A DNA stretch of 40,238 nt from a virus, in IMG/VR virus record IMGVR_UViG_3300036791_000334, positions 1 through 40,238 of that record. One strand, given 5' to 3'. Positions 2,568 through 40,238 of this stretch are shown here, in pieces. Made by a program: the position numbers and the translations under genes. The number at the start of each line of letters is the position of its first letter. Position 1 is the stretch's first letter. The notes beneath the pieces were generated by a model, which saw only the letters and a program-made list of their open reading frames with translations, was not told where the DNA came from and did no database searches.

Positions 2568-4261
2568 GTCTCTCTCTCCAACGCTTCGCCGCCGGCGATA
2601 CCAACTACATCGCGAAGCTCGATAGCAATTGCGACGCGATCGAGGCCGCGGTCGATGCGCTCGCGACGGCGCTCGGCACGACCTCGACGAGCTACGGACC
2701 TTTTTTGCAAGGCCTCCTCGGCTCGGCGCAATGCTTCCTCGGCTCCTCGAGCTATCAAACCGGGACCTCGGGCACGATCCTCAACGTCTCGGGCGGCTAT
2801 GTTTGGCGGCCCGATCTCGGGAGCGTGCTCTCGAAGGCCTCGACGACCGGCCTCGACTTCACCGGGCAATCGGCGGCGACCTATTACGTCGTCATCGGAG
2901 CGGACGGCACGCCGACCCGCTCCGCCACCTCGACCAATGCGCTTTGGTCTGTCGTCTGGACTGGCAGCGCCTTCGGCACGATCACCGCGCTCTGCCCGTA
3001 CGCACTCGGCGGCGATCTCGCCGATTCGACGAGCCTCACCTCGGTCTCGATCGTCGCCGGCGCCGTCTCGCTCGCGAAGATGGCAAACCTCGCGGCGCAT
3101 TCGATCATCGGTAACAACACCGGGAGCCCGGCGACGCCGATCGCACTCACCGCGAGCCAAGTGAAGGCGCTGCTCGCGATTGCCGATTCCGACATCACCT
3201 ACGCGAGCGAGTCGGCGAACATCGTGCACGCCGGGCCGTCTTCCGGCGGAGCGGCGACGCCGACATGGCGCGCGCTCGTCGTCGCCGACCTCGGCTTCGC
3301 CGGCAGCGCGAACGGCGTCGCGACGCTCGACTCCGGCGGCAAGGTGCCGACCGCGCAGCTCCCGAGCGCGGTCACCGGTGCGTTGCACTACCTCGGCACG
3401 TGGAACGCGAACACCAACTCGCCGGCGCTCGCCTCGGGGGTCGGCTCGACCGGCGGCTACTACAAGGTGAGCGTTGCCGGCACGACCTCGATCGACTCGA
3501 TCGCGAGTTGGAATATCGGCGACTCGATCGTCTTCGACGGCACGACTTGGGACAAGATCGACGGCATCGCAAACGAGGTCGTGACGGTCGCCGGCCTCGT
3601 CGGCGCGATCACGGCGTCAGCGCTGAAGACGGCGCTCGCGATCTCCTCGAGCGATGTGTCGGGGCTCGCGGCGGTCGCGACCTCGGGAAGCGCGACCGAC
3701 CTCACGACCGGCTCGCTCGCGCTCGCGCGGATTCACACGATCGCCGACGCCTCGATCCTCGGCAACAATTCGGGCGGCGTGCACATTCCGATCGAGCTGA
3801 CGGCGGCGCAAGTGAAGACGCTACTCGCGATCGCCTCCGGGGATGTCTCGGGGCTCGCGGCCTCGGCGACGACCGACACGACCAACGCCTCGAACATATC
3901 GAGCGGCACGCTCAACCGCGCCCGCCTCTCGACGCTGCGCTTCGACATCGGCGTATGTTTCGCCGGCGTGCCGACGGCGTCGCAGACGATCACCTACTGC
4001 GCGGCGCGCGCGATCACGATCGACCATACGGCGCCCGGCAGCGCGAAGGCGGGCACCGCCTCGACCGGCTCGGTCTCGGTGACCATCAATAAAAACGGCG
4101 CGAGCCAAGGCACGGTCGCCTTCGCCGCGAGTGCGACCGGCGCCTTCTCGATCGGCTCGGACATCACACTCGCCGCCGGCGATCTCCTCACCTTCGTCGC
4201 GCCGGGCTCGCCCGATGCGACGCTCGCCGACATCGGCATCACTCTCGCGGGGCTCGCATGA
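2564..4261 (+). CDS. tail fibre protein with phage-fibre repeat modules
   Basis: 565 aa, ATGA-coupled at both ends. A short helical N-terminus (about residues 1-45) resembles an attachment domain. Two copies of a module typical of phage fibres are visible: HSIIGNNTG...LTASQVKALLAI near residue 178 and ASILGNNSG...LTAAQVKTLLAI near residue 397. SDVSGLAA-type segments lie between them. The last ~100 residues are Thr/Ser/Gly-rich beta sequence, probably the receptor-binding tip. The repeat phrase QVKTLLAI is common in phage fibres and makes the general role secure. The receptor is unknown. Confidence 0.75.
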   Translation: MSLSLQRFAAGDTNYIAKLDSNCDAIEAAVDALATALGTTSTSYGPFLQGLLGSAQCFLGSSSYQTGTSGTILNVSGGYVWRPDLGSVLSKASTTGLDFTGQSAATYYVVIGADGTPTRSATSTNALWSVVWTGSAFGTITALCPYALGGDLADSTSLTSVSIVAGAVSLAKMANLAAHSIIGNNTGSPATPIALTASQVKALLAIADSDITYASESANIVHAGPSSGGAATPTWRALVVADLGFAGSANGVATLDSGGKVPTAQLPSAVTGALHYLGTWNANTNSPALASGVGSTGGYYKVSVAGTTSIDSIASWNIGDSIVFDGTTWDKIDGIANEVVTVAGLVGAITASALKTALAISSSDVSGLAAVATSGSATDLTTGSLALARIHTIADASILGNNSGGVHIPIELTAAQVKTLLAIASGDVSGLAASATTDTTNASNISSGTLNRARLSTLRFDIGVCFAGVPTASQTITYCAARAITIDHTAPGSAKAGTASTGSVSVTINKNGASQGTVAFAASATGAFSIGSDITLAAGDLLTFVAPGSPDATLADIGITLAGLA

Positions 4262-6045
4262 CGCAATACTATTGCCGCTCGCGCCCGACGGTCACATGGG
4301 CGACCGGGCACGCCTACAGTCTCGGCGACAAGGTCATCGCCACAAGCAGCACGACGAAGCAAGGCTATTGTTTCGAGTGCACGACCGCCGGCACCTCGCA
4401 CGCGAGCACTGAGCCGACATGGAACACGACCCTCGGCGGCACGGTCGTCGATAACACCGTCACGTGGACAACTCGAGGCGGCGCGCAGAAGTGGCAGGCG
4501 AGCCTCGCCTATGTCGCCGGCGAGCGCGTGACGCGCGTCAATGTCTCGACCGGCACCTACAACGGCGGATCGGCCGGCGGCGTCTGGGAATGCACCGTCG
4601 GCGGAACTTCCAACTCGACCGAGCCGGCATGGCCGTCGAGCCCGACCGACAATTCGACGACGCAGACCGATAACACCGTCACGTGGAAGTTTCACAAGTG
4701 CACGAGTTGGGACAATTGCGGCCCGAATCTCGGCGCGATCCTGCAGGGCGCGGGCTCCGGCATCGCGGGCGGCGACACGGTCTACGTCTCGAAGACGCAC
4801 GCGGAAAATAACACCGCGAACACCTCGACGATCGTGCTCACGGCGCCCGGGAATGAGACGACCGGCGGCGCGGTCAAGGTGCTCTGCATTGATGATACCG
4901 GCATGCCGACCTCGGGCTTCACGCTCGCGACCGGGGCCGTCATCAAGTGCACCGGCACGACCTCCGATGTCACGGTCGCCGGCTTCGGCTACTACTACGG
5001 CATCACCTTCGAGTCGGATTCGCGCACCGTCTTCGTCGTCGGCGCGGGCACGCTCGCCGGCGTGATCCTCGAGAATTGCCTGCTATGGCTCAATCACGCC
5101 AACTCGGGCGCCGATGTCGTGATCGGCACGAGCGCCACGTCATCCTCCGACGTACTGCTGATAAATACACAAGTGAAATTCGGCGCCGCCGGGCACGCGG
5201 TCGCGCTCTACGGCGGGCGCGTGAAGTGGCGCGACACCGCGCCGGCGGTCGCACTCGGCACCTCGCCGACGAATCTCTTCTCGAACGGCACCCACCTCAC
5301 GGGCGCCGCCTCTTTCGAGGGGGAAAACCTCGACTTCTCGAACCTCACCGGCGGCGGCTCGACCGGCATCCTCGGGAGCCTCAACCTCCTCGGCGTCGGG
5401 CACCGGATGATCTTCCGCGATTGCAAGATGCCGACCTCGTTCCAGTACGCCGACGGCGCGGGCGCGATCGACCGCGTCGGAGCTGCGATCGCCGACTTCG
5501 TCAACTGCGACTCGGGCAATACCAACTACCGCGTACACCGCGAGCATCCTTTCGGCACGCTCGACGAGGAGTTGACGCTCATCAAGGCCTCGGGCGCGAC
5601 CGATGGCACGACGCCGATCTCGTGGAAGTTGGTTTCGCGCGCGACCGCGCAATCTAACGGCGGCTGGCCGTTCGCGCTCGCCTCCTTCCCGATCGTGTTT
5701 TGGAATGACAATTCGGGCGGCTCGAAGACGGCGACCGTCGAGATCCTCGTCGACTCGGCGAGCAATTGGAATAACGATGACATATGGCTCGAGCTAGGCT
5801 ACCCGGCCGGCAGCTCCGACACGCTCGGCGGCAAGGCGACGAGCAACAAGGCGAGCATCGTCGCGAGCAACGCCGCGCTAACCAGCTCGGGCGCCTCATG
5901 GACAACAACCGGCATGACGCACCCCAACGCACAGAAGCTCTCGGTGAGCTTCACGCCGGGCAAAAAGGGATGGATTCGCGGCACGGTGCACCTCGCGAAA
6001 GCGAACGTCACCGCCTACGTCGACCCCGTGCTGAAGGTGAGTTGA
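4258..6045 (+). CDS. tail spike-like protein with two N-terminal carbohydrate-binding-like modules
   Basis: 595 aa, ATGA-coupled to the fibre gene. Residues about 14-72 and 79-145 are two copies of a small module with the pattern Y..G(D/E)(K/R)V, then ECT..GTS..TEP(T/A)W and TDNTVTW, resembling short carbohydrate-binding (CBM5/12-like) tail modules. The following ~300 residues (VYVSKTHAENNTANTSTIVL onward) have the short repeated strands and Asn/Gly turns of a right-handed parallel beta-helix. The C-terminal ~130 residues form a separate beta-rich domain. It probably recognises a surface glycan. No catalytic residues can be assigned by eye. Confidence 0.65.
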   Translation: MTQYYCRSRPTVTWATGHAYSLGDKVIATSSTTKQGYCFECTTAGTSHASTEPTWNTTLGGTVVDNTVTWTTRGGAQKWQASLAYVAGERVTRVNVSTGTYNGGSAGGVWECTVGGTSNSTEPAWPSSPTDNSTTQTDNTVTWKFHKCTSWDNCGPNLGAILQGAGSGIAGGDTVYVSKTHAENNTANTSTIVLTAPGNETTGGAVKVLCIDDTGMPTSGFTLATGAVIKCTGTTSDVTVAGFGYYYGITFESDSRTVFVVGAGTLAGVILENCLLWLNHANSGADVVIGTSATSSSDVLLINTQVKFGAAGHAVALYGGRVKWRDTAPAVALGTSPTNLFSNGTHLTGAASFEGENLDFSNLTGGGSTGILGSLNLLGVGHRMIFRDCKMPTSFQYADGAGAIDRVGAAIADFVNCDSGNTNYRVHREHPFGTLDEELTLIKASGATDGTTPISWKLVSRATAQSNGGWPFALASFPIVFWNDNSGGSKTATVEILVDSASNWNNDDIWLELGYPAGSSDTLGGKATSNKASIVASNAALTSSGASWTTTGMTHPNAQKLSVSFTPGKKGWIRGTVHLAKANVTAYVDPVLKVS

Positions 6046-7297: not shown

Positions 7298-7867
7298 ATG
7301 GCGAACGCACTCACCTCGGTCGCGAAGGCGATCGGCTCGATCGCGCCGACGCTCGCTTCGATGCTCGGCGGCCCGCTCGCCGGCACCGCGGTCGCAGCTC
7401 TCGAGAAGGCGCTCGGGCTCGCGCCCGGTGCCGGCCCGGAGGCGATCACCGCCGCGGTGCAGACGATGAGCCCGGAGACGATCGCCGCGGTGCGCGCGGC
7501 CGATCAGCATCACGAAGAGGTGATCGGGCAGCAGAAGATCGACCTCGCCAAGCTCAACGCCGACTCGGCCGCGGCCTTCGCGAAGGTCGACGCCGACGAT
7601 CGCGACTCCGCCCGCCGGCGCGAGACCGCGGTGCGCGACTACACTCCGCGCATCATCGCCGGCGTCGTCGTGGCGCTCACCTTCGGGCTCGAGGGGGCGC
7701 TCATTCTCGGCTGGCACAAACCGAGCGGCATTCCCGGGGAAGTGCTCGGCCGCATCCTCGGCACGCTCGACTCGGCCTTGATACTCGTGCTCGGCTACTA
7801 CTTCGGCAGCTCCGCCGGCGCCCGGGCGTCGGGCGAGGCGCTCGCCGAGATCGCTAAGCAACCGTGA
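7298..7867 (+). CDS. holin, 3TM (GTA-type) family
   Basis: 189 aa, ATG immediately after the endolysin stop. The N-terminal ~40 residues are an Ala/Gly/Leu hydrophobic helix. A charged helix follows (residues 60-115), then two membrane segments at about 118-138 and 150-170, ending YYFGSSAGARASGE. The order RDYTPRI, membrane segment, membrane segment, FGSSAG matches the holin family first named from gene transfer agents. It should sit in the inner membrane and permit endolysin access. The direct gene junction supports the assignment. Confidence 0.8.
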   Translation: MANALTSVAKAIGSIAPTLASMLGGPLAGTAVAALEKALGLAPGAGPEAITAAVQTMSPETIAAVRAADQHHEEVIGQQKIDLAKLNADSAAAFAKVDADDRDSARRRETAVRDYTPRIIAGVVVALTFGLEGALILGWHKPSGIPGEVLGRILGTLDSALILVLGYYFGSSAGARASGEALAEIAKQP

Positions 7868-8300: not shown

Positions 8301-8668
8301 GCGTCGAGAATCCCGACCCGGGGGAGAGCCAAGTGCTCCGGATTCATTTCGGCGCCTACTGGCGCGCGTGGCGCTGGCTGCGGAACCAGTTCACACCGAC
8401 GAGCCTCGCCGCGGTCGGCACGATCCTCGCCGCCGCCGGCGGCTACGTCGTGCACCTCCGGCAAGAGGTCGCGGTCGTGCGCGAGCGCGTCGTCGTGCTC
8501 GAGACGCGCGTCGTGCCGGTGCTCACCTCCTCGACCGAGGTCGCGGTGCTGAATCAGCGCGTCGACGATCACGAGGCGCGCCTCGGCAGAATAGAGTCGG
8601 ACTGGATCGACGCCCGTGACGCTGCCGGTCGGCCGCCCGTGGCACGGCACAAACTGCCGGGCCGGTAG
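8297..8668 (+). CDS. single-pass membrane coiled-coil protein, possible i-spanin
   Basis: 123 aa from ATG 8297, ATGA-coupled to the preceding gene. One membrane segment (about residues 35-52, LAAVGTILAAAGGYVV) follows a positively charged N-terminus (WRAWRWLRN). Then comes a helical heptad-like region (LRQEVAVVRERVVVLETRV, then LNQRVDDHEARLGRIE). That topology and the place at the end of the lysis cassette fit an inner-membrane spanin (Rz-like) that links to the outer membrane. No overlapping lipobox-bearing Rz1 partner was found, so the assignment is tentative. Confidence 0.5.
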   Translation: MSVENPDPGESQVLRIHFGAYWRAWRWLRNQFTPTSLAAVGTILAAAGGYVVHLRQEVAVVRERVVVLETRVVPVLTSSTEVAVLNQRVDDHEARLGRIESDWIDARDAAGRPPVARHKLPGR

Positions 8669-8721
8669 TGGCGGGGGGCGGCGGCGCCGCTCCTAGAGCC
8701 TCCTATTGCGTCGTGAGCGAT

Positions 8722-8748
8722 CCGGCCGGAGGAGCACCTCGCGGCCGG
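8722..8748. terminator. hairpin between convergent genes
   Basis: CCGGCCG at 8722-8728 pairs with CGGCCGG at 8742-8748 in the 97-base gap between the convergent ends of the lysis block and the zinc-ribbon gene. No T tract follows on either strand, so intrinsic termination is doubtful. Nothing else is visible in the gap. Confidence 0.3.
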
Positions 8749-8765
8749 TAGGGAGGCGATCGGCG

Positions 8766-8987
8766 CTACAGCTCGCCGACGTTGAGCGGCTCGAGCTTCC
8801 CGGGATAGGCGGCGAGCGTGCGCCACATGGCGCGACAGTCGAGACAAACCACCTCGCTATAGCGGCTCGGCGTATAGCGCCGCCCGTTGAAGGCGGAATG
8901 ATTGCAGCGCCATGCGGTGACGCGCCACCGACGCGCCTCGAGCGGCTTGCCGGCCTCGGGGCACCGGCAGATCGCGCCGCCGCTCAT
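8766..8987 (-). CDS. zinc-ribbon-like phage protein
   Basis: 73 aa on the minus strand. Cysteines occur as CRC (7, 9), RCNHSAFNG (28) and CLDC (48, 51), suggesting one bound zinc. The phrase CNHSAFNGRRYTPSRYSEV followed by CL.C...W recalls small phage proteins of unknown function. The start overlaps the end of the upstream HTH gene, so the two are probably cotranscribed. It may bind nucleic acid or protein. Confidence 0.55.
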   Translation of the reverse strand: MSGGAICRCPEAGKPLEARRWRVTAWRCNHSAFNGRRYTPSRYSEVVCLDCRAMWRTLAAYPGKLEPLNVGEL

Positions 8988-9358
8988 GCGACGCGCCGGG
9001 CGACCGCGACGCGCGTCACGGTGCCGGCCCGACCTTTGTGACGCCGCTCACGCTGACCGACGAGCGCCTCGACTGCCAGCTCGACGACCCGCGGGATCAC
9101 CTTCTCGCCGGCGAGGTAGTAGCGGAACATGCGCGCCGAGAGCCCGAGGTGCCGCGCCGCCGCGGCGGGCGTGAGGTCGGCGATCGCGAGCATCGTCCGC
9201 AGGCCGTCGGAGGTAAGCGCCGAGCCGCGCAGCCAACGGTGCACCGCGGAGCCTTGCACGCCGTACTCCCGGGCCGCGGCCTCGACCCCGTGCTCCCGGG
9301 CGTGCGCGATGAGCGCCGCAAGCTCCCGCGGAGTAAAGACTTTTTGCCGTTTCGTCAT
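8984..9358 (-). CDS. tandem helix-turn-helix regulator
   Basis: 124 aa with two HTH-like segments. Residues 11-45 (ELAALIAHAREHGVEAAARE, then GVQGSAVHRWLRG) resemble a transposase/resolvase-type HTH. Residues 63-95 (LTPAAAARHLGLSARMFRYY, then LAGEKVIPR) resemble an XRE-type HTH. A basic tail follows. The ribosome site is GAGGGGAAT. An intrinsic terminator lies just upstream, so its message may be limited by read-through from the DUF932 gene or come from its own promoter. It is a candidate to bind the operators at 10573-10588 and 10878-10893, which is an inference. Confidence 0.6.
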   Translation of the reverse strand: MTKRQKVFTPRELAALIAHAREHGVEAAAREYGVQGSAVHRWLRGSALTSDGLRTMLAIADLTPAAAARHLGLSARMFRYYLAGEKVIPRVVELAVEALVGQRERRHKGRAGTVTRVAVARRVA

Positions 9359-9372
9359 GGGATTCCCCTCTC

Positions 9373-9404
9373 AAAAAAGAGCGGGGCGCATCGGCCGCCC
9401 CGCT
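9373..9404 (-). terminator. intrinsic terminator after the DUF932 gene (minus strand)
   Basis: On the minus strand AGCGGGGCG (9404-9396 side) pairs with CGCCCCGCT over nine base pairs with a 7-base loop, followed by six T residues (plus-strand A at 9373-9378). This is a strong Rho-independent terminator for leftward transcription. It lies directly upstream of the ribosome site of the HTH gene. Confidence 0.8.
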
Positions 9405-9405
9405 G

Positions 9406-9421
9406 TGTTTCACGTGGAACG
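9406..9421. promoter_or_regulatory. parS-like ParB-binding site
   Basis: TGTTTCACGTGGAACG matches the chromosomal parS consensus (TGTTNCACGTGAAACA or its complement) at 15 of 16 positions; only the final base differs. It lies between the stop codon of the DUF932 gene and its terminator, outside any coding sequence. Other CACGTG words in the window match poorly and are in codons. No parA or parB gene is visible, so a bound protein would have to be the host ParB. Confidence 0.6.
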
Positions 9422-9422
9422 C

Positions 9423-10508
9423 TTAGGCCGCCTCGGCGAGCACCTTCCAGTCATTCGCCGGCAGCTCGATCACCGCGCCGCCGAGCTTCTCGAACTCGGT
9501 CGCGCGATCGTAGTCGGCGACGTCCGCCGCGAGCCGCGTGACTGCCCATTGCAGGCCGTATTGCGTCATTTCACCGGAGTCGACGAGGTGCCGCAGGAGC
9601 CCGCCGGTCTCGTCCTTCGTGAGCCCGTTCTTCTTGCCGAAGACCTCGACGACGTCCGCGGGTGCCTTCGTGATCTTCTTGCCGCGAGCCTCGATCATGC
9701 GATCGGTCACCTTGGCGAAGATCTTGCCGTCGGTCATCGCCGTTACCTGATCGCGGACCAAGCTCCAAAAGGCCGCATCGTCGAGCCGCCGAGTCGAGTC
9801 GCTGACGAACTCCTCGACCGACTCCTCGACCGTGACGCGCTTCCCGAGGTGCACCTTCACGAGCCCGTCGGTGCGGAAGGTCGCAAGGTTCGTGCACTGC
9901 TCCTCGAAGATCCCGGGGAGGAGCTGCACCGAGCCGGCGCCGACATCGGAGCCGCGAATGGTGAGCGCCCCGATCACCTTGCGCACGAAGAAGTTATGCC
10001 CGACGCCCATCTTCAGGCCTTCGGGAATCTCCAACTCGCGATCGAGCCAAGGGCAGAGCGCCTTGATATACATCTGAGTCTCGGACAAGTTGCACGAGGT
10101 GATCTGCGCGCCGGCCTTCTTCAGCACCGGCAGCACCGCGTCGGCGAGATCGTAGTTATCGAGCGGCCGGTAGCCGTTGGACACGACCGCGCGCACCGCG
10201 CCCGGGATGGTGCGCACCATGTGCTGACCGGGCTCTCGCTGAAAGAGAGCGTCGACGGTCGCCTTCAAGAGATCGGGATGCTTGCCGGCGAGCCGATCGA
10301 AGAACGGGACCGGAATCCCGACTTTGTCGGCGAGCTGGCGGCGGGCGTGAGTCGTCAGCTCGAAGGGCTTCGGCTGCCCGGCGATGACGATGCTCTTCGC
10401 ATCGGGCGTCATCGCGAGCTTGCGCGTGTCGGCGACGAAGTCTTTCGCCGTGCGCTTTACCTCGGTGAGTTGGGTCGCGAGATCTACAAGAGTTAAACCG
10501 GTTTTCAT
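9423..10508 (-). CDS. DUF932-family phage protein
   Basis: 361 aa, ATG 10508 with ribosome site ACTGAGGGGAATAT. The pattern fits the DUF932 family of phage and plasmid proteins. It has a short N-terminal helical part, FELTTHARRQLADKVGIPVP, then VRAVVSNGYRPLDNYDLADA in the core, and a C-terminal helical region. The biochemical function is unknown. Such genes are often strongly transcribed early genes in phages and plasmids. It is the first gene of the leftward block, transcribed from the divergent control region, and is followed by the parS-like site and a terminator. Confidence 0.7.
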   Translation of the reverse strand: MKTGLTLVDLATQLTEVKRTAKDFVADTRKLAMTPDAKSIVIAGQPKPFELTTHARRQLADKVGIPVPFFDRLAGKHPDLLKATVDALFQREPGQHMVRTIPGAVRAVVSNGYRPLDNYDLADAVLPVLKKAGAQITSCNLSETQMYIKALCPWLDRELEIPEGLKMGVGHNFFVRKVIGALTIRGSDVGAGSVQLLPGIFEEQCTNLATFRTDGLVKVHLGKRVTVEESVEEFVSDSTRRLDDAAFWSLVRDQVTAMTDGKIFAKVTDRMIEARGKKITKAPADVVEVFGKKNGLTKDETGGLLRHLVDSGEMTQYGLQWAVTRLAADVADYDRATEFEKLGGAVIELPANDWKVLAEAA

Positions 10509-10568
10509 ATATTCCCCTCAGTACACCGGGAAAGCGCCCGGCCGCACCGGCGGTATGCCGGCACTCAT

Positions 10569-10598
10569 AGTATGCAATGGTTGCACAGTAGGCCGCAA
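10569..10598 (-). promoter_or_regulatory. candidate leftward promoter for the DUF932 gene
   Basis: On the minus strand a TTGCGG -35 word (10598-10593) and a CATACT -10 word (10574-10569) are separated by 18 bases. The operator copy at 10573-10588 covers the spacer. The predicted start would give a leader of about 50 bases ending in GAGGGGAAT before ATG 10508. The match to sigma-70 consensus is moderate. Confidence 0.4.
10573..10588 (+). promoter_or_regulatory. operator copy 1 (TGCAA-N3-TTGCA)
   Basis: TGCAATGGTTGCACAG is the exact reverse complement of 10878-10893. Each copy contains the near-palindrome TGCAA-N3-TTGCA. This copy overlaps the leftward promoter. The arrangement suggests one dimeric repressor controlling both directions. 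Confidence 0.5.
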
Positions 10599-10671
10599 CG
10601 GCTAAATCGCTGTGCGGTGCGTCAGACTTTCGGGCCGAAACCTTAAAAGGCGCGAGCGTTTAACAATGTAG

Positions 10672-10691
10672 CCGAAAAGGCGCCTTTTCGG
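10672..10691. repeat. 20-bp perfect palindrome
   Basis: CCGAAAAGGCGCCTTTTCGG reads the same on both strands with no loop. It lies centrally in the control region and shares the AAAAGGCG core with the two CCTTAAAAGGCG repeats on either side. It is likely a protein-binding site rather than an RNA terminator, since no T tract follows. Confidence 0.6.
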
Positions 10692-10781
10692 ATCGCGTAT
10701 AACGCAATAGGAAGGCCAAGGCGCGGCGCGCCGACCCTACCCGCTACCTCGCTATCCCCCCGGTTTTTGTTGCGATGCGTC

Positions 10782-10794
10782 AATCAATGACTTG
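10782..10794 (+). promoter_or_regulatory. consensus IHF-binding site
   Basis: AATCAATGACTTG matches the IHF consensus WATCAANNNNTTR at every specified position. It lies between the central palindrome and the rightward promoter, where a sharp bend could bring the two distant operator copies together. In a GC-rich genome such a match is uncommon in non-coding sequence. Confidence 0.45.
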
Positions 10795-10877
10795 CGCGCG
10801 AAAGCTCATGTATGCGGCGCGTCATGTAAGGATTTCCGACAGCCGCCTTAAAAGGCGTGAGGATCGCCTCTTATGTG

Positions 10878-10893
10878 CTGTGCAACCATTGCA
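10878..10893 (-). promoter_or_regulatory. operator copy 2 (TGTGCAA-N3-TTGCACA)
   Basis: CTGTGCAACCATTGCA is the inverted copy of 10573-10588. Here the dyad is longer, TGTGCAA-CCA-TTGCACA at 10879-10895, with seven-base arms. It overlaps the -35 word of the rightward promoter, as expected for a repressor site. Confidence 0.5.
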
Positions 10894-10917
10894 CACCGCG
10901 GCGCCGGCGCTCATACT
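10889..10917 (+). promoter_or_regulatory. candidate rightward early promoter
   Basis: TTGCAC (10889-10894) and CATACT (10912-10917) are separated by 17 bases. The -10 word is part of CATACTATG, which is mirrored as CATAGTATG at 10566-10574 near the leftward promoter. Transcription would start near 10924 and give a short leader ending in the GAGGG ribosome site for ATG 10957. Confidence 0.45.
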
Positions 10918-10956
10918 ATGGGCGTCGAGAAAATCTACCAACTGAGGGCAACTCCG

Positions 10957-11229
10957 ATGACCAACGCCAGCACCGCAAACCCGAGCGCACCGGGCGTCAT
11001 GACGCAGAAGAATCCCAACGGCCGCAAGCATCATTTCATGTGCGGCGGCCCGACGCTGCATCAGGCTCGCTACTACATCGCATGGGAGCGCGCGACGCCC
11101 GGCTTTACCTTTTGGTGGCACGGCGACGGGCGCGTCGTGCAGCTCACGCGCCCCGACGACTACCGGCCCGGATGCGTGCCGCCGACCGACCCGGCGATCC
11201 TCGCCGCCCGCGTCGCCGCGCTCGGCTGA
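10957..11229 (+). CDS. early-region protein, unknown function
   Basis: 90 aa from ATG 10957, preceded by ACTGAGGGCAACTCCG, the leader style shared with the other early genes; an upstream in-frame ATG at 10873 lies inside the operator and is unlikely. The sequence has an aromatic central part (YYIAWERATPGFTFWWHGDG). No family recognised. It is the first gene of the rightward early block and is followed by an RNA hairpin repeated after the next gene. Confidence 0.55.
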   Translation: MTNASTANPSAPGVMTQKNPNGRKHHFMCGGPTLHQARYYIAWERATPGFTFWWHGDGRVVQLTRPDDYRPGCVPPTDPAILAARVAALG

Positions 11230-11235
11230 GCCGAT

Positions 11236-11272
11236 CGCCAAGCGCAGGGCAGGGATGCCCGGGCGCTTCGCG
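11236..11272 (+). repeat. intergenic hairpin repeat, copy 1
   Basis: These 37 bases recur at 11806-11842 with one difference, which falls in the loop. The core folds as AAGCGC paired with GCGCTT (11240-11268) around an inner GGGC/GCCC stem. There is no T tract. Each copy follows a stop codon and precedes a GAGGGGA ribosome site. Probably an RNA element (processing, stability or attenuation) spread by duplication. Confidence 0.6.
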
Positions 11273-11304
11273 ATCTGCTCACCAACAACACCGAGGGGAT
11301 TCCA

Positions 11305-11799
11305 ATGACCAACACGAAGAAGCGCCTGCCTTTCAAGGTCGAGCACTCGCCGGCGAGCGAGGCGATCACGCACGTCGAGCTTTGGTACGACCGCAAATCT
11401 CGCAATTGGATCGCGCAGGCGAAGAACGCCGACGACTTCCAACAAGGCAACGCCGAGGTCTGGTACACGAAGGAGCAAACGCTCGAGTGCGCGCGCCTCA
11501 TGTGGCCCGGCGTCAAGATCGTGCACACCGACCCGACCGGCGAGCGCGTGCTGCATACCTACGCCGCCGCCGCGACGGCTCGCGTCGGTGCTGACGCCTA
11601 CGATCGCGAGACCGGCAAGCGTTGGTGCGTGACCGCGGTCGCGCCCGGCTTCGTGACGCTCACGAGCTACGCGAGCGGCGCGCAGTGCACGGTCGCGCCC
11701 GCTGACTTCGGCCGCGACTTCAACGGCAGCGCCGTCGAGGCCGACGAGCCAAGCGACGAGGTGCCGGAGTGGAAGCGCGAACGCGCGCAGTGCGGCTGA
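11305..11799 (+). CDS. early-region protein, unknown function
   Basis: 164 aa from ATG 11305 with ribosome site CCGAGGGGATTCCA. N-terminal half: HVELWYDRKSRNWIAQAKNA and QTLECARLMWPG, a compact alpha/beta-looking segment. The second half (TGKRWCVTAVAPGFVTLTSY) looks like a small beta barrel, followed by an acidic tail. No family recognised. It is flanked on both sides by copies of the same hairpin repeat, so this gene and the repeat may have moved together. Confidence 0.55.
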   Translation: MTNTKKRLPFKVEHSPASEAITHVELWYDRKSRNWIAQAKNADDFQQGNAEVWYTKEQTLECARLMWPGVKIVHTDPTGERVLHTYAAAATARVGADAYDRETGKRWCVTAVAPGFVTLTSYASGAQCTVAPADFGRDFNGSAVEADEPSDEVPEWKRERAQCG

Positions 11800-11805
11800 G
11801 CTTTC

Positions 11806-11842
11806 CGCCAAGCGCAGGGCAGGGACGCCCGGGCGCTTCGCG
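11806..11842 (+). repeat. intergenic hairpin repeat, copy 2
   Basis: Second copy of the 37-base element at 11236-11272, with C instead of T at the single variable loop position. The paired stems (11810-11838) are unchanged. The leader ACTGAGGGGAATCCG and ATG 11873 follow. Confidence 0.6.
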
Positions 11843-11872
11843 GTGCGCTTCGCACCTACTGAGGGGAATCCG

Positions 11873-12469
11873 ATGACCATCTTCCAGACCATCATGACCG
11901 CGGTGCGTGACGCCCGCGCCGGCTGTCAGGCCGACGCCGAGCGGCAGCGCCGCGACTTTCGCTTTCAGCAATGGCGGCAGACCGAGCTAGTCGGCGCCAA
12001 CTCCGACGGGCGCGTCCGCGAGCCGATCTTCTTCGACTCGACGCACCGGCTCACGAAGGCGAACCTCCGCGACGGGATGCGCTACCTCGCCGAGCACGGC
12101 GCGAACTCCTTCTCGCTGCAGGGCGGGATCGACGGCGGCGATCGCATGAGCACCTTCGCCGACGGCGACTACTCGCCTTATATCGCGGAATGGGAGGTCG
12201 ACCTCGACCCGTTCGTCGACGACCTCGGGATCTCGATCCTCGCGCGCTGCGCGTATCGCGACTGCCGCGCGCCGATCCCGGCCTCGGGCTGCATCGGCGT
12301 CTCGACCTCGCGGCTCGACTCCCGCACGCGCATCTGCTCGCGCTGCGGCACGCGCGAGGCGCTCTCGGGCGAGGCGCTCTTCGCCGAGCCGCGCTTCGCC
12401 TCACTGCCGGCCGAGGCGACGCAGCTCACCGACGAGATCCGGGCGAGCTTCCCGAAGGCGGCGCCGTGA
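11873..12469 (+). CDS. early-region protein with zinc-binding cysteines
   Basis: 198 aa from ATG 11873 (leader ACTGAGGGGAATCCG). The central part is a soluble alpha/beta sequence (RLTKANLRDGMRYLAEHGAN). The C-terminal third has CAYRDC (126, 131) and CSRCG (155, 158), a probable zinc ribbon or knuckle. No named family recognised. It is coupled by GTGA overlap to the next gene. Confidence 0.55.
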   Translation: MTIFQTIMTAVRDARAGCQADAERQRRDFRFQQWRQTELVGANSDGRVREPIFFDSTHRLTKANLRDGMRYLAEHGANSFSLQGGIDGGDRMSTFADGDYSPYIAEWEVDLDPFVDDLGISILARCAYRDCRAPIPASGCIGVSTSRLDSRTRICSRCGTREALSGEALFAEPRFASLPAEATQLTDEIRASFPKAAP

Positions 12470-12774
12470 CCCGCGCCGACTCCCGGGCCGTGCTCGCCGC
12501 CTACGCGATCGACGTCGCGGCTGCCGCGCCGGTGCGCTTCGGTAAGCACGGGCACACGTGCTACATCCCGCGCGCGCTCGTGAAGGCGATCCGCGCGGAG
12601 CTTGACCGGGCCGGCATCGACTGGCGGGCGATGGTGAAGGCGCGCATCGCGGCCGACCTCGAGGCTCGGGCGGAGCGCGCGGCGCGCAGCACGCGGGCGC
12701 AGACGCAGGCCGAGGTCGACGCGCACGCCGAGGCGGAGATCGACGCACGGATCGCCGAGGCGGCCGACGGGTGA
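12466..12774 (+). CDS. early-region basic helical protein, unknown function
   Basis: 102 aa from GTG 12466, overlapping the previous stop (GTGA). The N-terminal half contains FGKHGHTCYIPRALVKAIRA. The C-terminal half is a continuous charged Ala/Glu/Arg-rich helix, likely a coiled coil. No family recognised. It is the last gene before a strong terminator. Confidence 0.5.
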   Translation: MTRADSRAVLAAYAIDVAAAAPVRFGKHGHTCYIPRALVKAIRAELDRAGIDWRAMVKARIAADLEARAERAARSTRAQTQAEVDAHAEAEIDARIAEAADG

Positions 12775-12795
12775 GAGCGTTCGCGCCGAGTCTTA

Positions 12796-12822
12796 AGGCC
12801 GCCTTCGGGCGGCCTCTTTTTT
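12796..12822 (+). terminator. intrinsic terminator
   Basis: AGGCCGCC and GGCGGCCT form an 8-bp stem closed by a TTCG tetraloop (12796-12815), followed by CTTTTTT. A textbook Rho-independent terminator for the early rightward genes. Confidence 0.9.
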
Positions 12823-12954
12823 GGTGCGCGTGAAAAACGCGAAAAGCTGTCAAGCGATTTATTTCGCGCCCGACGCGTCAGACAGTTAGGAGTTAGGTCG
12901 AGCCCGTTTCGCGGAGTCGGCGAAGAGGCGCGTGAGATAATGGTGCCAGCTCGA

Positions 12955-12998
12955 GCACTCGCTCGAGTGCGGACGCCGGGAGCTACCAACTCCCGGCG
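12955..12998 (+). ncRNA. structured 5' leader with two hairpins
   Basis: Two adjacent dyads precede the gene at 13038: GCACTC/GAGTGC at 12955-12970 and CGCCGGGAG/CTCCCGGCG at 12974-12998 (nine base pairs, 7-base loop). No T tract follows. They lie 39 bases before the start codon, upstream of the ACTGAGGAGATTCC leader. A GATAAT word at 12936-12941 could be a promoter -10. This may be a translation-controlling or stabilising leader; a protein-binding operator is the alternative. Confidence 0.35.
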
Positions 12999-13037
12999 CC
13001 GCTCGCTCTCTAACAAACTACTGAGGAGATTCCAAAC

Positions 13038-13289
13038 GTGAGCAAGTCTACTCGCAAGCGGATGTCGGCGGAAGAACGGGCGCGCGAGGAGCGCCTCTCG
13101 AAGAAGCTCGGGCTCGCCGAGGCGGCGGTCAAGCGCTCGAGATCGCGGCTCGTGCGCTCCTTCGGAGCGTGGCAACGGGCGGAGCTGCAGCTCGCCCGCA
13201 CGATCAAGGCGATCGAGCGGCCTCCGGTGCCGGTCGACACCTCGGGCGGCACGCCGTTCGATGACGTCGAGAAGCTCCGCACGGCGTGA
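13038..13289 (+). CDS. small basic helical protein, unknown function
   Basis: 83 aa from GTG 13038 with ribosome site ACTGAGGAGATT. It is Lys/Arg-rich and helical in the first 60 residues (RMSAEERAREERLSKKLGLA), with a short acidic C-terminus. It stands alone between two intrinsic terminators with its own probable promoter and a structured leader, so it is independently controlled. A small nucleic-acid-binding or host-takeover protein is possible; no family recognised. Confidence 0.55.
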   Translation: MSKSTRKRMSAEERAREERLSKKLGLAEAAVKRSRSRLVRSFGAWQRAELQLARTIKAIERPPVPVDTSGGTPFDDVEKLRTA

Positions 13290-13307
13290 CGGGATAGTCC
13301 GCGGAGC

Positions 13308-13342
13308 AAGGCCGCCTCGGCAACGGGGCGGCCTTTTTCTTT
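13308..13342 (+). terminator. intrinsic terminator
   Basis: AAGGCCGCC (13308-13316) pairs with GGCGGCCTT (13327-13335) around a 10-base loop, followed by TTTCTTT. Terminates the single-gene unit at 13038. Confidence 0.85.
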
Positions 13343-13353
13343 CCGGTGAAGGG

Positions 13354-13383
13354 CGGCAGACTTTGGCACGCTCCGGTCTGCCG
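13354..13383. terminator. hairpin at convergent gene ends
   Basis: CGGCAGAC (13354-13361) pairs with GTCTGCCG (13376-13383) around a 14-base loop. It lies downstream of the leftward block ending at 13403. No T run follows on the minus strand, so it may aid termination or protect the RNA 3' end. Confidence 0.35.
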
Positions 13384-13402
13384 GCGGAGTGAATCGTGCG
13401 CC

Positions 13403-13585
13403 TTAGCTTCTCCGATCCGGGCGAGCTGACAGTAGCGAGGCGACCCGTGCCTTCGCGATCGCGGCCTCGACGATCTCTGAGGGGGCAGATCGAGCGTCGA
13501 GGTCGCGGGGCGACTCCTTGAAGCGCCGAAACGGGCGCGTGACGACGAACATCACGAGCCCGAGCGCGAGGCCTTCGGCGATCAT
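13403..13585 (-). CDS. small membrane protein, 60 aa
   Basis: 60 aa from ATG 13585, overlapping the upstream gene by ATGA. One N-terminal membrane segment (IAEGLALGLVMFVVTRPF) is followed by a basic RRFK stretch and a soluble tail. It is the last gene of the leftward recombination block. Function unknown. Confidence 0.55.
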   Translation of the reverse strand: MIAEGLALGLVMFVVTRPFRRFKESPRDLDARSAPSEIVEAAIAKARVASLLSARPDRRS

Positions 13586-14019
13586 GCGAAGAGATCCGGC
13601 CCGGGCTCGGGCGTCGGGCGACGCCGCGGCCGAGGTGGCGGCGGCGGCTGGCGATGGAAGGCCGCGCGCAGCGCGTCGACGCCGGCGACCATCGAGCGCG
13701 CGAGCTTTTCCTGCAGCTCGCAATGCTGCTCAAGCTCTTCGACCGTGCGCGCGATGTAGTAGCCGCCGGCGCTCGAGCGCGTGCTCACGACCGGCACGCC
13801 GAGCGCGCGCTGCAGGAGAAAGACGGCCTTGCGCAAGTGCCGCAGATTCGCATCGCTCGGCGGCTTGTCGAGCTTGCGCAGCAGCACGAGCGCCGGGAGC
13901 GCCGTGCTCTCGCCGCGGCCGAGGTGCGCGGCGATCGCCATGAATGACGCCGGGCACGAGTGCGGCTCCTCGGTGAGCGGATCGGTCCACTCGTGCAACG
14001 GCTCGCGCTCGGCGCTCAT
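13582..14019 (-). CDS. winged-helix-like protein, unknown function
   Basis: 145 aa from ATG 14019, which overlaps the previous stop (ATGA). Residues about 30-85 (ALVLLRKLDKPPSDANLRHL, then LLQRALGVPVVSTRSSAGGY) read like a winged helix with a final GGYYI strand. A helical segment and a Pro/Arg-rich tail follow. It could be a DNA-binding regulator or a recombination accessory protein. The family is not certain. Confidence 0.45.
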   Translation of the reverse strand: MSAEREPLHEWTDPLTEEPHSCPASFMAIAAHLGRGESTALPALVLLRKLDKPPSDANLRHLRKAVFLLQRALGVPVVSTRSSAGGYYIARTVEELEQHCELQEKLARSMVAGVDALRAAFHRQPPPPPRPRRRPTPEPGPDLFA

Positions 14020-17162: not shown

Positions 17163-17513
17163 ATGGCTAAGCTGATTCGCCCGAAGATGCCGGCCGGCAC
17201 CTACCTCGCCCGCCGACCCTCGACCTACGAATTTGTGCTCGTGGAGCTTGAGGCTCGCCGGCCGGAATGGCCGAAGGTGGCGCGGCAGCTCCGCATGAGC
17301 CGGCACACGCTCGACAAGATCGGGCGGCAGATCTCCCGGCAGCCAAGCGTGCGCACGATCGAGCGCCTCGCCCGGCTCTTCGATGACGAGAATCGCGTGA
17401 GCGCCCGCAAGCGTCGCGACCGCGCCGCCCGCAAGCGTCGGCTCGCGAAGGCCGCGACCGGGGAACGCCCGCGACCCGTCTCGCTCCCGATCGCCGCCTC
17501 GATGATCGCCTGA
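17163..17513 (+). CDS. helix-turn-helix regulator
   Basis: 116 aa from ATG 17163. Residues about 33-72 form an HTH of the lambda-repressor/YdaS style (WPKVARQLRMSRHTLDKIGR, then PSVRTIERLARLF). A strongly basic linker follows (SARKRRDRAARKRRLAKAAT). It is divergent from the leftward block, next to a perfect inverted repeat, and directly upstream of the replication genes, the position of Cro/CI-type regulators. There is no cleavage or peptidase domain, so it is not a LexA-like repressor. Confidence 0.65.
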   Translation: MAKLIRPKMPAGTYLARRPSTYEFVLVELEARRPEWPKVARQLRMSRHTLDKIGRQISRQPSVRTIERLARLFDDENRVSARKRRDRAARKRRLAKAATGERPRPVSLPIAASMIA

Positions 17514-17636: not shown

Positions 17637-18605
17637 ATGGCGCGAATTCGCACGATCAAACCCGATTTTTGGTCCGATGACACTGTCGGCGAGCTGTCCT
17701 TCGCGGCGCGACTGCTTTTCATCGGATGCTGGAACTTCGCCGACGATCACGGCAACCTCGAGCGCTCGGCGAAGCAACTGAAGGCGCAAGTTTTCCCGCA
17801 CGACGTGATCGACTGCGAGCCGGTCGTGCGCCAACTCATCGACGCCGGCCTCCTCTTCGAGTACGAAGGCACGCCCGAGGGCAAGAGCCCGAGAAAGTAT
17901 CTGCATATCAAAGGCTTCGCCGATCACCAAAAGGTCGAGCGCCGCGGCGCGCCGCGCTTCCCGCTACCCGAGGCCTCACCGACGGCTCACCGAATCCTCA
18001 CCGACACCTCACCGAGTGCTCACCGACTCCTCGAGGTCTCTTCTCTGGAAGGGAAGGGAAGGGAAGGGAAGGTAACGGAAGGGAAGAGCGCTACGCGCTC
18101 TCCGGAGCGCGCGCGCGCGTGCGAGGCCGAGGATGCTGAGCGGCTCGAGGCGTGGCACAAGCTGCACGGCGAGGCGCCCGACACTCCTCCGCTCGAGGTC
18201 GAGGTCGAGGTCGAGATCGGCGAGCGCGAGGCGTGGAGCGTGCTCGAGCGGGTAAAGGCCGCCTACCCGGCCGGCGTCTACCTTGCGGCCGACTGGATTC
18301 TCGCCGAGCGTCATCTGCGCAACCGTCTCGCCGAGGGCATCCCGCCCGATGAGCTGATCGCCGGCTGCGCGCGCTACGCCGCGCAATGCGTCGCGCGCGA
18401 GTGCGGCACGCGCTTCGTGCGCTCGCCGAAGGATTTCTTCGCGAGCCCGGCCGATCGCTGGCGCGAGCCGTACCCGCTCCCGACCGAAGGCGCTAGGCGC
18501 GGGAAGAAAACCTTCGACGACTACCGGCGCGAGCGCGAGGAGCGCGAAGTGCGCGAGGCCGAGCCGGGCGGCGAGCAGCTCAGCGCGGAGCCGTTGCCGT
18601 TTTGA
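17637..18605 (+). CDS. replication initiator (lambda O-like / replisome organiser) with internal origin
   Basis: 322 aa. Residues 1-105 are the winged-helix domain seen at the N-terminus of phage replisome organisers: MARIRTIKPDFWSDDTVGEL, ARLLFIGCWNFADDHGN, KQLKAQVFPHD, YLHIKGFADHQKVERR. A low-complexity linker (113-150) is encoded by an 11-bp repeat array and a purine tract. The C-terminal ~120 residues are helical (AYPAGVYLAADWILAERHLR) and should contact the helicase loader encoded next. As in lambda O, the origin appears to be inside the gene. Confidence 0.8.
   Translation: MARIRTIKPDFWSDDTVGELSFAARLLFIGCWNFADDHGNLERSAKQLKAQVFPHDVIDCEPVVRQLIDAGLLFEYEGTPEGKSPRKYLHIKGFADHQKVERRGAPRFPLPEASPTAHRILTDTSPSAHRLLEVSSLEGKGREGKVTEGKSATRSPERARACEAEDAERLEAWHKLHGEAPDTPPLEVEVEVEIGEREAWSVLERVKAAYPAGVYLAADWILAERHLRNRLAEGIPPDELIAGCARYAAQCVARECGTRFVRSPKDFFASPADRWREPYPLPTEGARRGKKTFDDYRREREEREVREAEPGGEQLSAEPLPF
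17975..18029 (+). repeat. five tandem 11-bp iterons (CTCACCGANNN), probable replication origin
   Basis: CTCACCGA recurs five times at exact 11-base intervals starting at 17975, 17986, 17997, 18008 and 18019; only the last three bases vary. A degenerate sixth copy (CTACCCGA) stands at 17964. Eleven is not a multiple of three, so the repeat is not explained by protein repetition and points to DNA function. One-turn spacing puts every copy on the same face of the helix. It lies in the linker-coding part of the initiator gene, as the iterons do in lambda O. Confidence 0.75.
18047..18085 (+). other. purine tract with four GGGAA repeats (G-quadruplex-capable)
   Basis: GGG runs at 18051, 18056, 18061 and 18066 are separated by AA, which fits an intramolecular G-quadruplex. 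The all-purine strand continues to 18085 with few breaks. It begins 18 bases after the iteron array, the place where an origin usually carries its easily melted element. The encoded protein (EGKGREGKVTEGK) is a plain charged linker. Confidence 0.55.
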
Positions 18606-23003: not shown

Positions 23004-23576
23004 GTGACTCGTGCACGTTTGACCGCCGGCGGCCTCGTCTCGCTCGCGGAATTCGGCCGGCGGCACGGCGTGACGCGCGAGGCGGTGCGTGCGGCGGTCA
23101 AGCGCGGCCGGATTCAGCTCTCGAAGGGCGGCAAGATCGACCCGCGGACGGCTGACAAGGCGTGGCGCGCCGGGCATGACCCGGCCGGTCACGGCGGAAA
23201 GAGGGGCACCGGGCCGTCGAGGCGGGGCGGAGCGCGGTCTCGAGGGGGGCGCAAGGTGGGCGAAAGTGGGGCGGAAACGCCCGACAAAGCGCCCGAGAGC
23301 GGCCTCACCTTTCTCGCGATGCGCACGCGGCGCGAGGCGGCGGCGGCGGCGATGGCTGAGTTGCAGCTCCGCGAGCGGCAGAGCGAACTCGTCGCCGCGA
23401 AGCAAGTGCGCGAGCGCGTCTTCCGGGCGGCCCGGGCGGCTCGAGATCTCGTGCTCGGGATCACCGACCGGCTCGCGCCGCGGCTCGTCGGGCAAGACGA
23501 GGCGACGATCCGCCGGCTACTCGGCGAAGAGACGGCTCGAGTCTGCACTGTGATCTCACATGCTCCGGATCTATGA
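23004..23576 (+). CDS. terS: terminase small subunit (Nu1-like)
   Basis: 190 aa from GTG 23004. N-terminal HTH (LVSLAEFGRRHGVTREAVRA, then AVKRGRI) as in Nu1-type DNA-recognition subunits. A Gly/Arg-rich linker (60-95) follows, then helices for oligomer formation and large-subunit contact (LQLRERQSELVAAKQVRERV). It overlaps the large-subunit gene by 17 bases. It should bind cos and position the packaging motor. Confidence 0.8.
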   Translation: MTRARLTAGGLVSLAEFGRRHGVTREAVRAAVKRGRIQLSKGGKIDPRTADKAWRAGHDPAGHGGKRGTGPSRRGGARSRGGRKVGESGAETPDKAPESGLTFLAMRTRREAAAAAMAELQLRERQSELVAAKQVRERVFRAARAARDLVLGITDRLAPRLVGQDEATIRRLLGEETARVCTVISHAPDL

Positions 23577-25485
23577 CCTCGACGGCTATCGCGAGGGCTG
23601 GCAGCTCGATCGCACGTTGACCGTCGCCGAATGGGCCGACGCGAATGTCACGCTCTCGACGAAAGACTCGGCCGAGCCCGGCCCGTATCGCACGAGCCGC
23701 ACGCCGTACGCGCGCGAGATCATGGAGTGCCTTTCGACGCACTCGCCGATCGAGACGGTCGTGCTCATGGCCGGCGCGCAGCTCGGGAAGACGCGCATCG
23801 GGCTCAACTGGCTCGGCTACATCATCGACGTCGCGCCCGGGCCGACGCTCGTCGTCGAGCCGACCGTCGACCTCGCGAAGAAAGTCTCGAAGCAACGGAT
23901 CGCGACCATGATCGCGACGACGCCGGCGATCGCTTCCAAGGTCGCCGAGGCTCGAGCGCGCGACTCGAGCAATACGATGTTCGAGAAGGAATTCGACGGC
24001 GGAATGCTGCTCATGACCGGCGCCAACTCGGGCGCCGGGCTGCGCTCGATGCCGATCCGCTACTTGTTTCTCGATGAGATCGACGCCTACCCGCACGACG
24101 TCGACGACGAAGGCGATCCGATCGGGCTCGCCGAGGAGCGCACCGCGACCTTCGCGCGGCGCAAGATCCTGAAGACTTCGACGCCGACGATCCGCAACCT
24201 CTCGCGCATCGAGGCCGAGTACCTCCGGAGCGATCAACGGCACTATTTCGTGCCATGCTCTCACTGCAACGCGTTCGACTTTATCCGATGGGAGCGGCTC
24301 GCATGGTCTGACGAAGCGCCCGACGACGTACGGCTCCGCTGCGAAGTGTGCGGGCAGCTCACCGAGGAGCGGCACAAGGCCGAGCTACTCGAGCGCGGCG
24401 AGTGGCGCGCGACTGCGCTCGGCGACGGGCGCACCGCGGGCTTTCATATCTCGACGCTTTACGCGCCGGTCGGCTGGCGCTCATGGGCTGACTGCGCGCG
24501 GGAATTCCGCACCGCGAACGCGACGCTCGAGCAAGGCGATCCGACCAAACTGAAGAAGTTCGTTAACACCGTGCTCGGCGAGACATGGGAAGAGCGCGGG
24601 CAGAGCTTCGAGGCGACCGATCTGAAGAACCGGCTCGAGAGCTACCCGGCCGAGGTGCCCGCCGGCGTCGGGCTCCTCACCGCGAGCGTTGACGTGCAAG
24701 GCGATCGCCTCGAGGCCGCGGTCGTCGGATGGGGCGCCGGCGAAGAATCATGGCTCATCGCCTTGCATCAAATTCACGGCTCGCCGGAACTCGAGGCGAC
24801 ATGGTTCGACCTCGATGAGATCCTCGCCTCGACCTTCACGCACGAGAGCGGGCGCGTGCTCACCGCGCGCTGTGTCGCGATCGACTCCGGCGGCCTACAC
24901 ACCGAGCACGTCTACCGCTACGTGAAGGCGCGCGAGAATCGCCGGCTCGCAAACGGCGATCCGCAATGGCTGCGCGCGATCAAAGGCGTCGGCGGCCCGG
25001 GGCTCGAGATCGCCGGCCGCCCGTCGACCGGCAACCGCTACCAAGTGCACCTCTTCCCGATCGGCGTCGACGGCGCTAAGGATCTGATTTTTCAGCGCAT
25101 GCAACGCACCGCGCCCGGCCCGGGATTCATGCACCTCCCGGCATGGGTCGATGACGAGTACCTCGCGCAGCTCACCGCCGAGAAGGCGATCCGCAAATAC
25201 AAAAAAGGCGTCGGCACGGTGCGCGAGTACGTGAAGCTGCGCGAGCGAAACGAAGGCCTCGATCTTCAGGTTTACGCGCTCGCGGCGCTGCACATGCTCG
25301 GCCGGCGCACGATCGCGGAGCTGGCGAACCTCGCGCGCGAGGCCGCACTCCCGCCGCCCGAGCTGCCGGCGCCGGCCGCCGAAGGCCGCGCGGACGTGAA
25401 AGCGGAGCTACTTCGCGAGGCGCGGCAGGGCAAATCGGGCGCGAACTTCGTCACAAGATCGAAGGGATGGATCTCGCGTTGGTAG
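23560..25485 (+). CDS. terL: terminase large subunit, GpA family
   Basis: 641 aa, the usual size for lambda gpA relatives. ATPase: AGAQLGKTR (71-79) as the Walker A-like loop, YLFLDEIDAYP (168-178) with the Walker B acidic pair. A zinc-ribbon-like insert follows (C233xxC236, C261xxC264). Nuclease: SVDVQGDR (Asp378) and AIDSGGLHTEH (Asp442). It cuts concatemers at cos and pumps DNA into the prohead. A GpA-type enzyme implies cos-type packaging, which agrees with the circular assembly. Confidence 0.95.
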   Translation: MLRIYDLDGYREGWQLDRTLTVAEWADANVTLSTKDSAEPGPYRTSRTPYAREIMECLSTHSPIETVVLMAGAQLGKTRIGLNWLGYIIDVAPGPTLVVEPTVDLAKKVSKQRIATMIATTPAIASKVAEARARDSSNTMFEKEFDGGMLLMTGANSGAGLRSMPIRYLFLDEIDAYPHDVDDEGDPIGLAEERTATFARRKILKTSTPTIRNLSRIEAEYLRSDQRHYFVPCSHCNAFDFIRWERLAWSDEAPDDVRLRCEVCGQLTEERHKAELLERGEWRATALGDGRTAGFHISTLYAPVGWRSWADCAREFRTANATLEQGDPTKLKKFVNTVLGETWEERGQSFEATDLKNRLESYPAEVPAGVGLLTASVDVQGDRLEAAVVGWGAGEESWLIALHQIHGSPELEATWFDLDEILASTFTHESGRVLTARCVAIDSGGLHTEHVYRYVKARENRRLANGDPQWLRAIKGVGGPGLEIAGRPSTGNRYQVHLFPIGVDGAKDLIFQRMQRTAPGPGFMHLPAWVDDEYLAQLTAEKAIRKYKKGVGTVREYVKLRERNEGLDLQVYALAALHMLGRRTIAELANLAREAALPPPELPAPAAEGRADVKAELLREARQGKSGANFVTRSKGWISRW

Positions 25486-39997: not shown

Positions 39998-40238
39998 ATG
40001 GCAACGCTCACAAGCTCCTCGACGGTCGCGATCGGCGCGGGCTCCGCGGTCGTCGACTCGGTCGCGTTTCCGATCCTGCCGGCGCTCGGCTCCTCGCTCG
40101 GCAAGGGGCGGCTCGTGCATCCGACGCTCGGCACGCTCGACTATCCCAACGCGCCCGACGAATGGCGCAACGTCGACACCGACGTCATCATCGCGCCGGT
40201 TTGGGCGAACTCGAAGACGCTCGTCGGCTCTTCCAACG
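39998..40238 (+). CDS. tail-associated protein, N-terminal part of gene crossing the circle join
   Basis: Starts at ATG 39998, three bases after the large tail gene, beginning MATLTSSSTVAIGAGSAVVD. It runs off the window end. The terminal repeat joins it in frame to 12-446, giving 183 aa. No family is recognised. By position it is a tail-tip structural component. Confidence 0.6.
   Translation, partial: MATLTSSSTVAIGAGSAVVDSVAFPILPALGSSLGKGRLVHPTLGTLDYPNAPDEWRNVDTDVIIAPVWANSKTLVGSSN
40113..40238 (+). repeat. terminal direct repeat, right copy (circular assembly overlap)
   Basis: Identical to 10-135 over 126 bases. The sequence before it (GGGGCGGC) continues an open frame, so this side is the authentic one and the 1-9 bases at the other end are the chimeric ones. 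Confidence 0.9.

Follow-up and report, generated by a model that had tools for sequence, protein, structure and literature searches.

The 40,238-nucleotide stretch of viral DNA analysed here in its entirety (hereafter the window) carries a single centromere-like parS site in a phage genome where no partition genes of its own could be found, an arrangement that is probably explained by capture of the ParB protein of the host. The element in question, TGTTTCACGTGGAACG at positions 9406–9421, is a real parS-type site: an imperfect 16-bp palindrome with a CACGTG core, whose last base breaks the symmetry. It lies exactly where the preliminary description had placed it, in the intergenic gap that separates a stop codon from a terminator-like hairpin. 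The 15 of 16 matching positions claimed there depend on the reference chosen. They hold against TGTTYCACGTGRAACA and also against TGTTTCACGTGGAACA, each of which is one base away, but against the bacterial chromosomal (ParABS) consensus TGTTTCACGTGAAACA, as given in a passage of PMC10197239, two mismatches leave 14 of 16. Markov models of order 1–3 predict about 0.0001–0.0003 sites per window within one mismatch of TGTTYCACGTGRAACA, which bears out the earlier view that such a match is unlikely to arise by chance in 40 kb. The same models predict 0.002–0.003 sites within two mismatches of TGTTTCACGTGAAACA, and shuffles of the window yield 0.05 expected matches within three. When the rest of the window was scanned for up to four mismatches, the best other places had three or four, leaving one near-perfect site only. 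The site resembles chromosomal parS in length, palindromic layout, core, and 14 of its 16 bases, but differs in residing on a phage, in being single, and in that no parB was found in the record; nor was placement at a chromosomal origin, a trait of chromosomal parS, found for this lone site on a phage record. It is probably functional.

The elements around the site are tightly packed. Read along the minus strand, the TAA stop codon of a 361-residue protein (9425–9423) is followed by one base, the site, one further base, the terminator-like stem-loop, and finally the start of a helix-turn-helix gene, whose start codon is 47 bases from the site (Table 1). The possibility that parS forms part of the terminator RNA was considered and rejected, as the predicted fold comprises the terminator stem and, at parS, a hairpin of only four pairs. 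The region 8500–11000 yielded no promoter of the sigma-70 consensus type. The gene that ends beside the site had been named DUF932, a name that found no support: no DUF932 profile matched its product, either in Pfam at E values up to 1 or in NCBIfam at values up to 0.1, the only Pfam match in that range was a single chance-level one to another family, and the protein matches phrog_1362 instead. Farther along, the two strands give conflicting gene calls between 10822 and 13733, where G+C content by codon position prefers the plus-strand frames 10873–11229, 11305–11799, and 11843–12469 over the long minus-strand frames 10822–11895 and 12561–13733.

Table 1. Coordinates of the parS-type site, its surroundings, and other features; positions are those of the window unless a locus is given
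Feature	Position	Strand	Basis or remark
parS-type site TGTTTCACGTGGAACG	9406..9421	.	1 mismatch to TGTTYCACGTGRAACA
Terminator-like stem-loop, 9 pairs and T run	9380..9404	-	RNA fold, sequence
Gene for 361-aa protein, stop codon adjoining the site	9423..10508	-	phrog_1362 (E 3.4e-35); predicted product without assigned function
Gene for 124-aa helix-turn-helix protein, beyond the terminator	8984..9358	-	HTH_23/HTH_31 matches just below or below curated cut-offs
Replication initiation protein	17637..18605	+	phrog_1408 (E 3.4e-29)
Terminase large subunit, GpA type	23560..25485	+	Query for related phages
parS in annotated terminal repeat, Ochrobactrum phage OspP_OH	L308 27-42		
parS in annotated terminal repeat, Pseudomonas phage phiPsa374	L310 389-404		

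The window represents a complete phage genome in one circular permutation, because its ends overlap (bases 10–135 are identical to the last 126 bases, 40113–40238) and because the gene order of a relative, G005, continues across the junction. Some nine additional bases ahead of the overlap resemble a fold-back, and the record is cut within a gene spanning 39998 to 446. With a G+C content of 66%, the genome also encodes portal, head, and tail proteins, a RecT-type annealing protein, exonucleases, and an endolysin. A six-frame profile search of the record (E ≤ 1) returned no ParB_N domain (PF02195), a profile that a very distant ParB could escape, and no ParA family appeared among the Pfam matches of the scanned proteins (overlapping sets of 10, 10, and 43). 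The earlier remark that no partition genes are visible thus stands, and the pair of ParA and ParB genes that makes up a phage parABS cassette was not found in the window. A search for PF00589, that family alone, likewise found no tyrosine integrase in the record; a plasmid-like prophage lifestyle is possible. The best terminase matches in genomes share at most 60% identity and are scattered across phyla, and therefore no host is named. Among GenBank phages, no DNA relatives of the region 8400–12000 were found.

An orphan parS on a phage is a known kind of element, with phi29 as the precedent. This phage carries four exact TGTTTCACGTGGAACA sites on 19 kb, and the parS at 17243–17258 (locus L312) directly follows the stop codon of gene 16 and precedes annotated terminators. 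The sites were reportedly analysed by Meijer et al. in EMBO J in 2005. According to a passage of a later paper, Spo0J of the host allows the phi29 chromosome to be trapped in spores (PMC9437464, with reference to Meijer et al.). A word search of PMC11476376, a review of phi29-like phages from 2024, found the words Spo0J, parS, spore, and ParB absent. The window shares with phi29 a chromosomal-type parS on phage DNA, in a form one base removed, and the order of stop codon, parS, and terminator; no ParB was found encoded in the window, as is characteristic of an orphan site of this kind. It differs in its one site against four exact ones, its high G+C content, its GpA-type terminase, and its unnamed host, where that of phi29 is a spore former. 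Other phages with centromeres compare less closely. Extrachromosomal prophages of mycobacteriophages are said to carry parABS and hence a centromere on phage DNA, as the window does, but reportedly with partition proteins of their own, none of which was found here. Phage P1 ParB is likewise a phage-borne partition protein, as mentioned in part of PMC12704722. Phage lambda bearing an inserted parS gathers CFP-ParB during infection, according to a passage of PMC13190303. There, too, parS lies on phage DNA, but as a laboratory label and not as a natural site. Work on phage P22 is said to belong with this use of parS as a label.

Sites of this type recur widely among sequenced phages. BLAST searches of GenBank phages matched TGTTTCACGTGAAACA in 286 records, TGTTTCACGTGGAACA in 147, TGTTCCACGTGGAACA in 58, and the window's own form, TGTTTCACGTGGAACG, in 19, the last not far above chance level; at an E value of 8 for a 16-mer, a few chance matches per search are expected. 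These counts are redundant and non-independent, include metagenomic records, and register perfect palindromes on both strands. The four control 16-mers were matched in 0, 36, 0, and 0 records; 29 of those 36 were Salmonella phages, and among the 30 matches listed, 24 fell in annotated RNA polymerase subunit genes. Some matched records, such as that of Acinetobacter phage MD-2021a, contain bacterial-looking genes. Phages of Pseudomonas, Arthrobacter, Bacillus, Listeria, and Stenotrophomonas as well as Microviridae are among the TGTTTCACGTGGAACA matches, and Microbacterium and Gordonia phages among those to TGTTTCACGTGAAACA. Hosts of the Escherichia, Salmonella, and Klebsiella type are not known to have chromosomal ParABS, and their phages were absent from 60 records sampled across the 147 with TGTTTCACGTGGAACA, as expected if such hosts offer no benefit from the site. 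However, a limit to ParABS hosts does not fit the TGTTCCACGTGGAACA matches, 10 of 58 of which come from Klebsiella phages; most of these have genomes of ~346–358 kb, and in some the site lies in a baseplate wedge gene. In Pseudomonas phage phiPsa374 (in the direct terminal repeat, DTR), Vibrio phage phi 3, and Ochrobactrum phage OspP_OH, parS resides in terminal repeats. Among the matches listed in searches of the open-licence literature, in which "parS" queries also caught other words, no survey of parS in phages was found.

In viral contigs, too, parS-type sites are over-represented relative to controls. At least 120 stretches of a contig set that may include host DNA contain the exact 16-mer of the window, and grouping the 80 matches listed by the DNA they share gives 52 clusters. 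By comparison, the reversed 16-mer was found in 2 stretches of one contig, the same arms around a CAGCTG core in 7 stretches (7 clusters), those around GACGTC in 6 stretches (4 clusters), and a 16-mer with rearranged halves in 29 stretches (11 clusters). More than one parS, counted up to one mismatch and reaching five sites, is present in 10 of the 80 listed loci (7 of 52 clusters), against none of 80 for two control motifs at the same mismatch limit; 44 control loci (312 kb) contained no parS. Close arrays of two to five sites are seen in contigs L090 (3386–3760), L042 (1169–1366), and L046 (362–414). A ParB_N domain over the cut-off was present in 3 of the 80 listed records, many of them short (1 of 50 plus 2 of 30), or in 6 at E 0.001. 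The sites lie in open frames of at least 120 codons in 33 of 52 clusters, more rarely than the 83% of random positions in the same loci. A terminator near the site was found in 2 of 52 clusters, compared with 3% of random positions; the succession of stop codon, parS, and terminator was therefore rejected as a general rule, despite its presence in both phi29 and the window. One set of contigs that share DNA (L023, L030, L034, L053, L055, L066, L069, L081, L084, and L088) has parS in a context that looks similar by eye, and most of these contigs are 4–7 kb, microvirus-like in size.

Among the closest relatives, the site is sporadic. Twelve related records were compared, two retrieved through the 361-residue protein (G001 and G002) and ten through the terminase (G003–G012); they are partly non-independent, as G001 equals G002 where compared. 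Only two contain a parS within one mismatch, against about 0.0036 expected over the 12 records (with G011 counted by its 14,939-base locus only). In G005 (41,178 bp), GGTTCCACGTGGAACA lies 19 bases past the terminase stop codon and ahead of the next matched gene; in G004 (22,108 bp), GGTTTCACGTGGAACA lies within a 567-codon frame. The other ten (G001–G003 and G006–G012), many of the compared records being fragments, have no parS within two mismatches. The preliminary description had made presence of the site in relatives a touchstone of its claim, and the outcome is divided: 10 of 12 lack a near-perfect site, and 2 have one at other positions. Conservation in synteny was in fact rejected, as no two positions correspond: the loci L002 and L003, which hold homologues of the gene for the 361-residue protein, have no parS behind its stop codon or elsewhere within up to three mismatches, and the sites of G004 and G005 lie elsewhere. 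A putative decayed copy behind the terminase gene of the window was discarded as well, its five mismatches being too weak to count. Around more distant terminases, each taken with no more than 10 kb of sequence on either side and many on contigs that are short fragments, a one-mismatch parS was found in none of 78 viral loci (753 kb; those among 80 retrieved that were new to the comparison) and in none of 80 genome loci (1.25 Mb); the CAGCTG control motif matched once in the 78 viral loci. Two relatives encode ParB_N-domain proteins upstream of the terminase, G005 at 4072–4308 (a 194-codon frame) and G006 at 7602–7844 (a 562-codon frame). As far as the compared sequences tell, the picture is of parS apparently gained and lost at shifting places.

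The reading that fits these observations best, and that we regard as probable, is that an orphan host-type parS loads the ParB of the host, whose segregation machinery then positions the phage genome or keeps it in the cell. Once bound to parS, ParB closes into a CTP clamp and spreads over the adjoining DNA, as described in part of PMC12704722. In the window, the chromosomal ParB of the host would load on the site in this fashion and slide onto adjacent phage DNA. The phage would contribute a DNA tag only, the host supplying ParB, ParA, and the ParB–SMC link, and this machinery might place the phage genome near the nucleoid or a pole, or pass a non-integrated circle on at division. Host ParB capture, already suggested in the preliminary description, is retained as the best explanation on account of a site without ParB_N, its recurrence in 2 of 12 relatives, and its enrichment in viral DNA; the accompanying proposal of a plasmid-like prophage is carried forward as a possibility. 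Host ParB capture has to contend with the presence of one site only, with its asymmetric last base, with the shifting position among relatives, with the location of the G004 site inside a long frame, and with the ParB_N-domain protein that G005 encodes. The individual steps differ in strength. That host ParB binds the site is quite likely, and that the benefit lies in retaining or positioning the genome of the phage is put forward tentatively. Among the conceivable benefits, retention or positioning ranks first and titration of ParB next, with local gene control less likely.

A decoy function would turn the logic of the site around: replicating phage copies would titrate host ParB, and perhaps SMC with it, thereby disturbing chromosome segregation in a takeover of the host, and partition of the phage would not be the point. 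The terminal-repeat sites of phiPsa374 and OspP_OH and those of microvirus records speak for this reading, since the gain from inheritance as a prophage is less obvious there, but one site per genome would presumably be a weak sink early in infection, and we consider it unlikely. Local gene control is more doubtful. ParB at the site could act as a roadblock, or spread to silence the helix-turn-helix gene and its neighbors, and the position between stop codon and hairpin, so close to the start of that gene and laid out alike in phi29, invites this idea. Against it stand the lack of a consensus promoter in the region searched, the rarity of terminators beside the sites in other clusters, and the different gene neighborhoods in which the sites of G004 and G005 are found.

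The two remaining alternatives dispense with ParB altogether. Mere chance, with no function attached, is as improbable as local gene control. It would account for a site that is not conserved in place among relatives, but not readily for a match expected at most 0.0003 times in the window, for two near-perfect sites in relatives where 0.004 are expected, or for the broad excess over controls in viral contigs. Proteins of several types read CACGTG palindromes, and the reader might thus be the phage helix-turn-helix protein encoded alongside, or a host regulator that recognizes such a core. This we hold to be slightly more improbable still: many clusters share the full 16-bp form, few have its arms around a CAGCTG or GACGTC core, and the combination of these arms with this core is the parS form.

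With host ParB capture as the preferred reading, its reach becomes the larger question. It is close to an even call, leaning slightly to the negative side, whether capture of host ParB through an orphan parS is a general phage strategy, spanning tailed phages and microviruses of many hosts, with sites quickly gained and lost; the window would then be a further example. If many phage genomes do recruit host ParB, phages would commonly target the machinery that segregates the chromosome. It is this generality, and not the kind of element, that is the interesting part. The case of phi29 is explained by spores. Hosts such as Pseudomonas, Stenotrophomonas, and Arthrobacter form no endospores, however, yet sites occur in their phages, and the benefit therefore cannot be spore entrapment alone; these phages call for another. 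If the reading is true, the position of a phage genome in the cell, its inheritance, or the takeover of its host would become addressable through deletion of a 16-bp site.
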